The position numbers and the translations under genes are program-made. 64,000 bases of DNA, from NCBI GenBank assembly GCA_015064725.1, contig SVRQ01000002.1, forward strand, positions 78,753 to 142,752, read 5' to 3'. Numbering within the stretch: position 1 is the first letter of the stretch; every line of letters starts with the position of its first letter. The DNA is from Oscillospiraceae bacterium (lineage in GTDB: Bacteria > Bacillota > Clostridia > Oscillospirales > CAG-272). Shown one piece after another: positions 15,118 through 39,250 of the stretch. The notes below the pieces were generated by a model, which was given only the letters and a program-made list of their open reading frames with translations, was not told the origin of the DNA and ran no database searches.

Positions 15118-15164
15118 ACGGTTGACACGAGGAAATTTTTGTGCTATCCTAATTAAAAATAAAT

Positions 15165-15290
15165 ATCTTGCGGTGCGGACAAGGAAATCTCGGTGAAAAT
15201 CCGTCGCAACAGCCATTACCGTAATTGCTTTTTGCATAAGTCGGAATGCTTGCCGCCCCGTCGCTTACCGATACATCGGGCACTTTTGGG
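15165..15290 (+). ncRNA. Cobalamin riboswitch
   Basis: GGTGAAAATCCGTCGCAACAGCCATTACCGTAA core and AAGTCGGAATGCTTGCCGCCC; preceded by promoter TTGACA(15122)-17 nt-TATCCT(15145). Confidence 0.85.
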
Positions 15291-15370
15291 TATATAGGAG
15301 AGTGCGGCCGTTTTTGAAGATCCGTTTTTCGCAGGAGCATTTCTGCGCTTTTTCTGCACGGAATTTTGCG

Positions 15371-15412
15371 GCGCTCTTTAGACCTTTGTGTTTAAAGAGC
15401 GCTTTTTGTTTT
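15371..15412 (+). terminator. Intrinsic terminator downstream of riboswitch (likely expression platform)
   Basis: GCGCTCTTTA-gacctttgtgtt-TAAAGAGCGC-TTTTTGTTTT. Confidence 0.8.
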
Positions 15413-15488
15413 GAATCGGCGGGCGTTCCGTCTGCGCCTTGTATGAAAATGATGTTTGTTTTATTAAAATCAAAAGGAGAATATCAAA

Positions 15489-16172
15489 ATGAAAAAACAG
15501 GCAAAAAGAATAGTTTCTCTTGTTCTCGCACTTGCAATGCTTGCGCTTTGCGCTCTTACATTTGCATCCTGCGGCGAAAAGGATTACGTTTACGTAACCA
15601 TCGCGGATGAAAAAGGAAACATAGTTGTGGCTTATGAAAAAGTTTACCCAAAAGAGCTCACGGCAGATGCGGCACTCTCTGCGGCGCACGAAAAATTCTA
15701 TGAGGGTGGTTCGGATGGATACGCGAGCGCGGAATCTTCCTACGGTCTTTCTCTTACAAAGCTTTGGGGTACGGAAAACGGCGGCTCTTACGGCTACTAC
15801 GTAAATAACGTTTCCCCCAATTCCCTTTGTGATGCCGTTGCCGTCGGCGACCATATATACGCTTTCGTTTACACGGACCTTGAATCATTCAGCGATAAAT
15901 ATTCTTACTTCAACATAAAGACGGGCGAAGCGAGCCGCGGCTCTACGTTTGAGCTTGAACTTACGTATCTTGATTACGACGAAAATTGGAACATTGTGAA
16001 AAAAGCGGCGGCAGGTGCATATATCACCATCGACGGCGATAGAACGGAGTTTGTGACAGATGAAAACGGCAAGGCCCACGTCAAGATCGCGGAAAAGGGA
16101 GAATACGTTATAAGCGCGGAAAGCGATACGCTCACCCTTGCTCCCGCCGTTGCGCTCATCACGGTAAAATAA
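15489..16172 (+). CDS. DUF4430 lipoprotein (transcobalamin beta-domain-like)
   Basis: Lipobox TFASC; ELTADAALSAAHEKF...SYGLSLTKLWGTENGGSYGYYVNNVSPNSLCDAVAVGDHIYAFVYTD is DUF4430-like. Confidence 0.75.
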   Translation: MKKQAKRIVSLVLALAMLALCALTFASCGEKDYVYVTIADEKGNIVVAYEKVYPKELTADAALSAAHEKFYEGGSDGYASAESSYGLSLTKLWGTENGGSYGYYVNNVSPNSLCDAVAVGDHIYAFVYTDLESFSDKYSYFNIKTGEASRGSTFELELTYLDYDENWNIVKKAAAGAYITIDGDRTEFVTDENGKAHVKIAEKGEYVISAESDTLTLAPAVALITVK

Positions 16173-17255
16173 ATGAAAAGAGTTTTTTCTTTGCTTTTGG
16201 CGGCAATGTTGTTTAGCTTTGCTTTTTCGGCTTCTGCCTTTGACGTGCGTGACGATATAGACGGTATCGCCTCGTACAAAACGAAGGAATACGGCGCGAA
16301 AAGCGTGCAAGGGCTTGCGGATGCCCTTGCCGAGGATGCCGGAAAGGGCGCGGAGTGGTACGCGATAAGCCTTTGTGCGCTCGGAGAATACGATATGAGT
16401 GCATACGTACAGGCACTTGCGGACTTTCTTTCCGAAAATAAGCTTATGGGCACGGAGGCACAAAGGTGTGCGCTTGCCTTTATCGCTTGCGGCGTTAAGA
16501 GCGATTACATAGATCGTGCCGCGGAAAATTATATAGGCAAGCAGGGAATGATGAGCTATATCTGGGGGCTTCATCTTCTTAACAATGGTGCAAAAAGCTC
16601 CGTTTATACGGCGGAGAGTACGGCTCTTGCAATTATAGAGCGTCAATGCACGGACGGCGGTTTTTCCATTACGGGGGAGCGCGGCGACGTTGACGTAACG
16701 TCAATGGCTCTTTGCGCGCTTGCACCGCATATAAAAAATAACGATGAGATCGCAGATTCCGCGCAAAAAGCACTCTCTTTTCTGTCGGCCGCACAGCTTG
16801 AAAACGGCGGCTTTAAAAGCCGCGGAGAGGAAAACAGCGAAAGCGCGGCGCAGGTCATAACCGCGCTTTGTTCTCTTGGCATCGACCCTCGGACGGATGC
16901 GCGATTTATCAAAAACGGCAATAGTGCGCTTGACGCACTTTCCTCATATAAGCTCGCAGGCGGAGCTTACGAGCATACAAGCGGCGCGGGTGCGAACGAT
17001 ATAGCGACACAGCAGGCTCTTTACGCGCTCATCTCCCTTCAAATGTTTGACGAGGGGAAAGGCTCCTTCTTCATTTTTGAAGATAAAGGGGATAAAACTC
17101 CTGCGGGTTTTCGCGATGTGGAATTTGAGCGCGGAAACGGCGAAGTGCCCAAAGAAAAGGCGGATATAAAGACCATCGTGTGCGTTGCGGTGATCGGCGT
17201 TTGCGCGCTCGGCATTGCGGCGGCTTTGCTTATGCCTAAGAAGAAAAAAGAATAA
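16173..17255 (+). CDS. Secreted membrane-anchored alpha/alpha-toroid protein (prenyltransferase/squalene-cyclase-like repeats)
   Basis: Signal peptide; repeats with DGGFSITGERGDVDVTSMALCALAP and LENGGFKSRGEENSESAAQVITALCSLG; C-terminal TM plus KKKKE; ATG directly follows the DUF4430 stop. Confidence 0.75.
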   Translation: MKRVFSLLLAAMLFSFAFSASAFDVRDDIDGIASYKTKEYGAKSVQGLADALAEDAGKGAEWYAISLCALGEYDMSAYVQALADFLSENKLMGTEAQRCALAFIACGVKSDYIDRAAENYIGKQGMMSYIWGLHLLNNGAKSSVYTAESTALAIIERQCTDGGFSITGERGDVDVTSMALCALAPHIKNNDEIADSAQKALSFLSAAQLENGGFKSRGEENSESAAQVITALCSLGIDPRTDARFIKNGNSALDALSSYKLAGGAYEHTSGAGANDIATQQALYALISLQMFDEGKGSFFIFEDKGDKTPAGFRDVEFERGNGEVPKEKADIKTIVCVAVIGVCALGIAAALLMPKKKKE

Positions 17256-17257
17256 AG

Positions 17258-17285
17258 AAAAATGCGGGAAACCGCATTTTTCTTT
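17258..17285 (+). terminator. Rho-independent terminator
   Basis: AAAAATGCGG-gaaa-CCGCATTTTT. Confidence 0.8.
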
Positions 17286-39037: not shown

Positions 39038-39250
39038 GGCGTGATACTCTTAACGGAGTATCACGCCAGTTCTATTCGCCTCCCGGCGAGTGATATTGCT
39101 ACGCAGTGATATTCGGCTTACGCCGAGTGTTATTCGCTTCGCGAGTTTATGGGCGAATAGAATATCACTGTGAGGCGTAGCCGAACAATATCACTGCTCG
39201 CAAGGGCAATATCACTCTTTGCGAAAGCAAAGAATATCACTCATAGACAG
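39038..39250. repeat. Intergenic hairpin-array inverted repeat (ATATCAC type)
   Basis: Repeated GTGATATT / AATATCAC spacers alternating with mini-hairpins; outer arms TTCTATTCGCC...GGGCGAATAGAA. Confidence 0.7.

Follow-up and report, generated by a model that had tools for sequence, protein, structure and literature searches.

A two-gene unit in the window, as the whole 64,000-nucleotide stretch of DNA analysed here is called, probably encodes a cobalamin-repressed surface module that captures corrinoids for an ECF transporter of the CbrT type. Its two genes, both on the forward strand, specify protein D (positions 15489-16172), a putative lipoprotein, and protein T (16173-17255), a secreted alpha/alpha toroid with a C-terminal transmembrane (TM) anchor. 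Both frames are intact and adjoin with zero gap (16172/16173), as a sequence-only reading of the same DNA had described. The computed evidence for the system comprises the riboswitch that precedes the genes, its terminator, the presence of a CbrT-like ECF transporter in the same operon in relatives, the division of T into two parts, a second locus in the same genome and purifying selection on both proteins (dN/dS of 0.17 for D and 0.13 for T).

The unit opens with a candidate sigma-70-type promoter (15122-15150, forward strand; TTGACA-17-TATCCT), a consensus match at 10 of 12 positions with an extended -10 TG, which the earlier reading had also noted. Next comes a cobalamin riboswitch aptamer of AdoCbl-II-like type (15160-15265, forward strand). 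At the Rfam gathering cut-off, zero riboswitch matches were obtained for the window leader. With relaxed thresholds the top match was RF01689, the AdoCbl-II family (15172-15259; 27.8 bits, E 2.6e-4; gathering cut-off 36.5), while RF00174 scored just 9.3 bits; the Rfam check thus returned a cobalamin family as the best match, at a score short of the curated threshold. Relaxed AdoCbl-II matches were present in 60 of 148 genomes of the same family, 3 of them exceeding the cut-off, and a clade model (R1) was built from 23 aligned relatives among these matches, above-threshold members included and the window and its genus excluded. This model gave the window riboswitch 93 bits (E 1e-22), the second-best match in the window reaching 10.9 bits, and the claim of a cobalamin riboswitch was thereby borne out. 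In the core alignment, the window element possesses, at a regulatory position, the conserved core and the pairing common to the above-threshold homologues, and the closing helix of the alignment contains compensatory changes. The element resembles RF01689 riboswitches in core sequence, helix pattern, location upstream of B12-uptake genes and the presence of a terminator downstream, but differs from them in being clade-specific in sequence and under the curated threshold.

The expression platform of the riboswitch includes an intrinsic terminator (15370-15413, forward strand), composed of a 14-pair stem (15370-15403) and a subsequent T tract, in agreement with the earlier prediction. Among 80 related loci, which were fetched through D, the clade model matched in 60, every match being on the coding strand (a few of the genomes counted here may also have fed the model). 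In 51 loci, the window among them, the distance from the riboswitch end to the D match ranged from 80 to 803 nt (median 370), and a terminator-like hairpin was located between the two in 45 of the 51, versus 2 of 51 shuffled controls. In view of the clade-model scores, the coding-strand placement and the hairpins before D, the riboswitch is real and forms part of the D-T operon. Across the genus, a single strong riboswitch per genome was detected with the clade model in all six genomes; it sits at D-T in all four that were checked for position, and the ECF locus of the genus gave no match with this model. A second candidate in the genome of the window (G000:C22) was rejected, since it scored 20.6 bits, lacks the cobalamin core and is not matched by Rfam. 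At its other end, the two-gene unit is closed by a hairpin resembling a bidirectional terminator (17254-17285), recognized from the sequence, and a separate promoter-like site (17319) precedes the downstream gene. Two further elements were observed: Gut-1 RNA (RF01706), at window positions 39067-39138 and at L227:12-182, with several copies in the genome, and a small HNH_repeat (PF18780) reading frame, located between the riboswitch and D in several loci (e.g., L079:8088-8288).

The alpha/alpha toroid with a C-terminal TM helix that had been proposed for T was upheld. Its AlphaFold2 model (pLDDT 93.5) consists of paired helices, a C-terminal helix (residues 332-353) and a chain end of KKKKE, and by this model T has the alpha/alpha toroid fold of the Prenyltrans clan. 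Foldseek matches included terpene cyclases, farnesyltransferase beta and GH105, with modest TM-scores, and the Pfam matches of the window T to Prenyltrans and SQHop were weak and sub-threshold. Terpene cyclases resemble the toroid more closely in sequence than any B12-binding protein does. Class II terpene cyclases are characterized by the acid motif DXDD; a conserved DVDV in T stands at its place. A bona fide C-terminal DUF4430 domain (PF14478) is carried by 62 of the 75 T homologues and is lacking in the window T. In the fused relatives, the layout is toroid-TM-TM-DUF4430, and the two TM helices are joined by a basic loop, so that the toroid and the DUF4430 domain should both face outward.

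The complete gene order in the Clostridia relatives is riboswitch, D, T, EcfT (CbiQ), double ABC ATPase and S component. D is located directly upstream of T in 68 of 75 T loci; ECF genes occur no more than four genes downstream of T in 53 of the 75, and upstream in 2 more. A profile of 30 S components had a single PDB match, chain A of 6FNP (E 3.9e-14), the structure of ECF-CbrT, which transports cobalamin and cobinamide (PMC5997447).

In the window locus the ECF genes are missing, and T contains just the first of the two TM helices. In the genome of the window (G000; 1.6 Mb, 70% complete), the S component and PF14478 each occur in one place, contig C31, where profile searches revealed, on the minus strand (L227 9634-5943), genes for a TM-DUF4430 protein, CbiQ/EcfT, a double ABC ATPase and S. 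The DUF4430 protein, of 180 amino acids, has an N-terminal TM helix followed by the DUF4430 domain (59.6 bits), and the S component matches 6FNP with an E value of 9e-11. The C31 locus, with its CbrT-like S component, EcfT and two ABC ATPase domains, represents an ECF-CbrT system, and the unlinked importer that the sequence-only reading had postulated was thereby located. Since T ends at the first TM helix, and the DUF4430 half and the ECF genes are on C31, these sequences indicate that T is cut at the cytoplasmic loop between the two TM helices and that the operon is divided in the genus of the window. The gene for the DUF4430 protein lies with that for the S component in five of six genus genomes. 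In the toroid tree, the window genus nests inside the fused T sequences, and one further locus (L172) is close to the genus there as well as in the S tree, which is consistent with one ancestral operon. In genome G021 (98% complete; L063, L232), neither a CbrT-like S component nor adjacent ECF genes were found; this genome retains the riboswitch, D, T and a free DUF4430 gene.

Protein D comprises a DUF4430-like N-terminal domain and an Ig-like/CarboxypepD_reg-like C-terminal domain, and its AlphaFold2 model has a pLDDT of 93.8 (70-75 homologues in the alignments). Homologues of D were detected in 49 of 148 family genomes (E ≤ 0.001), and the protein is kept in those genus genomes that were searched for it. 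Its earlier description as a DUF4430 lipoprotein holds at most as a probable, distant profile likeness and fails as a family assignment: Pfam gave no PF14478 match for the window D, and PF14478 is missing from the families listed for 70 D homologues. With the signal peptide removed, the N-terminal domain was related by hhalign to two DUF4430 groups with probabilities of 53% and 30%; as controls, two true DUF4430 groups gave 58% against each other, and shuffled profiles gave 2.7% or less. An earlier hhalign comparison of D with DUF4430 lipoproteins (96.8%) was discounted, its score having been inflated by signal peptides. D is, on these profiles, probably a distant DUF4430 relative and not a member of the family, and it constitutes a third, additional component, not simply the beta half of a transcobalamin. 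The Ig-like half outweighed the rest of D in the fold search, and no direct sequence link of D to the solved structures of transcobalamin (TC) and intrinsic factor (IF) was found. LPXTG-type anchor features were observed in 19 D homologues. Many D homologues (alignment A1) also contain a dockerin/EF-hand-like segment, DxDxDGxLTxxDAL, a possible calcium site that is not in the window copy.

Animal TC and IF contain an alpha/alpha barrel. The DUF4430 domain is placed at the C-terminus of transcobalamins in a published paper (PMC4350170). An alpha/alpha barrel followed by a DUF4430-type beta domain, the arrangement of TC, IF and haptocorrin, is likewise that of the fused T homologues, and the occurrence of toroid and DUF4430 in one chain in 62 of 75 of them supports the transcobalamin-like domain pair claimed earlier, with the correction that the true DUF4430 partner is encoded beside the importer and is not D. 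In contrast to the animal carriers, the T homologues are anchored in the membrane and have a hairpin of two TM helices separating the domains; in the window genus the carrier domains are furthermore split over two loci, the window T lacking the toroid and DUF4430 combination in one chain, and there is the extra D protein. The comparison of structures lent the earlier reading no support: TC/IF were absent from the best 50 fold matches listed for the single-chain models of D and T. Similarly, a PDB search with profiles of the toroid and DUF4430 halves (E ≤ 10) produced no match to TC or IF.

A demand for B12 is apparent in the genome of the window, which encodes a B12-dependent MetH with both B12 domains and, on the same contig, metF and a gene for the MetH activation domain. 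This activation domain is a separate gene of 202 amino acids (L233:4566-5171), ahead of an 803-amino-acid MetH without that domain. CbiC, which marks the ability to make the corrin ring de novo, was found in none of the six genus genomes. A BtuC-type FecCD permease was not found in the window's own genome, in G085 and G021 (97-98% complete) or in G149; FecCD/BtuC is present in two of the six (G130 and G148). For B12 uptake in the genus, G021 excepted, the natural route is the ECF system with the CbrT-like S component.

In the mechanism that we propose, for which we infer ligand binding, hand-over and the direction of regulation, low cellular adenosylcobalamin would cause the riboswitch (15160-15265) to let transcription through the terminator (15370-15413), and D and T would be synthesized, secreted and tethered to the outer side of the membrane. 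The toroid of T, the DUF4430 domain and D would then bind corrinoid outside the cell, the DUF4430 partner having ancestrally been part of the T chain and being supplied here, in this scheme, by the separate N-terminally anchored protein of the ECF locus. The captured corrinoid would be passed to EcfT, EcfAA' and the CbrT-like S component, and would be imported for the B12-dependent methionine synthase. By analogy with transcobalamin, the extracellular toroid and DUF4430 domain may close over the corrinoid before handing it to ECF-CbrT, in which case the carrier of the genus would consist of two anchored halves encoded at different loci, one of them under the riboswitch. Such a clamp is plausible because of the domain architecture, and is put forward tentatively, at slightly less than an even chance.

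CbrT alone binds B12 at about 9 nM (PMC5997447), so that a helper protein is not obligatory. The CbrT-like S, EcfT and EcfA/A' components of the relatives' operon and of the C31 locus resemble those of ECF-CbrT from Lactobacillus delbrueckii (6FNP), but the L. delbrueckii cluster, nrdJ-cbrS-cbrT-pduO, includes no toroid/DUF4430 proteins (PMC5997447), whereas here proteins of this type are under a B12 riboswitch. That the characterised ECF-CbrT functions without such subunits (PMC5997447) would agree with a purely structural or accessory role for D and T in the transporter, in assembly, anchoring or cell-wall organisation, with no corrinoid binding of their own. The strict ECF gene linkage would also suit such a role, as would the Ig-like domain of D and the LPXTG-type anchors of its 19 homologues, which are typical of wall proteins. 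This explanation is nevertheless considered unlikely, given that toroid and DUF4430 match the domain order of TC and IF and that both halves of T are conserved even once at separate loci.

Surface capture of B12 is already known in Bacteroides (PMC6143338, PMC13398666), where BtuG strips B12 from intrinsic factor (PMC6143338) and BtuH-type DUF4465 lipoproteins bind B12 at the surface (PMC13398666). D and T would share with BtuG and BtuH the character of surface-anchored B12 scavengers tied to a B12 transporter; they differ in belonging to unrelated families (DUF4465 for BtuH) and in serving an ECF system, not an outer-membrane TonB system. The ability of BtuG to take B12 from intrinsic factor (PMC6143338), and the inclusion of both enzymes and protein-binding folds among alpha/alpha toroids, would favour a role in which T and D interact with a protein that carries B12 or alter the corrinoid (e.g., by stripping B12 from binders of the host or of other bacteria, or by acting on the lower ligand) before it is released to CbrT. 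With no catalytic family assigned, such a role appears quite improbable. The replacement of the class II terpene cyclase motif by DVDV in T also argues against it. There is very little chance that D-T is the decaying remnant of an ECF operon whose transporter has relocated, for although the ECF genes and the DUF4430 half of T are gone from the window locus, both frames are intact with dN/dS values of 0.17 (D) and 0.13 (T), the riboswitch persists in all six genus genomes and D in those searched, and the split-off DUF4430 half is intact on C31.

To our knowledge, ECF transporters are thought to operate without an extracytoplasmic capture stage; a capture module for ECF-CbrT, if true, would provide one. 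The riboswitch-linked surface module and ECF-CbrT would then be the Clostridia counterpart of BtuG/BtuH, and would offer a bacterial parallel to, or a possible source of, the domain pair of the animal B12 carriers. The module also yields functional hypotheses for DUF4430 and "squalene-oxidase-repeat" surface proteins, which are usually annotated generically. No description of the D-T module was found in text searches of 5.39 million open papers, and none of the six among them that name DUF4430 deals with bacterial B12 uptake, as judged by titles, abstracts and a passage. The papers found likewise contain no account of Gram-positive gut bacteria competing for extracellular B12, for which Bacteroides have BtuG/BtuH.

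Related arrangements were observed at other loci. In a second class of operon with the same riboswitch (L101:8597-9599 and about a dozen alike, L082, L085, L086, L088-L092, L099 and L100), a short DUF4430 lipoprotein is followed by a membrane protein of ~190 amino acids without a Pfam match, which resembles an ECF S component and may be a stripped-down variant of the same scheme. In other Clostridia families, class-level matches revealed related domains that share one protein or reading frame, about 850-2000 residues long (L093:3811-8586).
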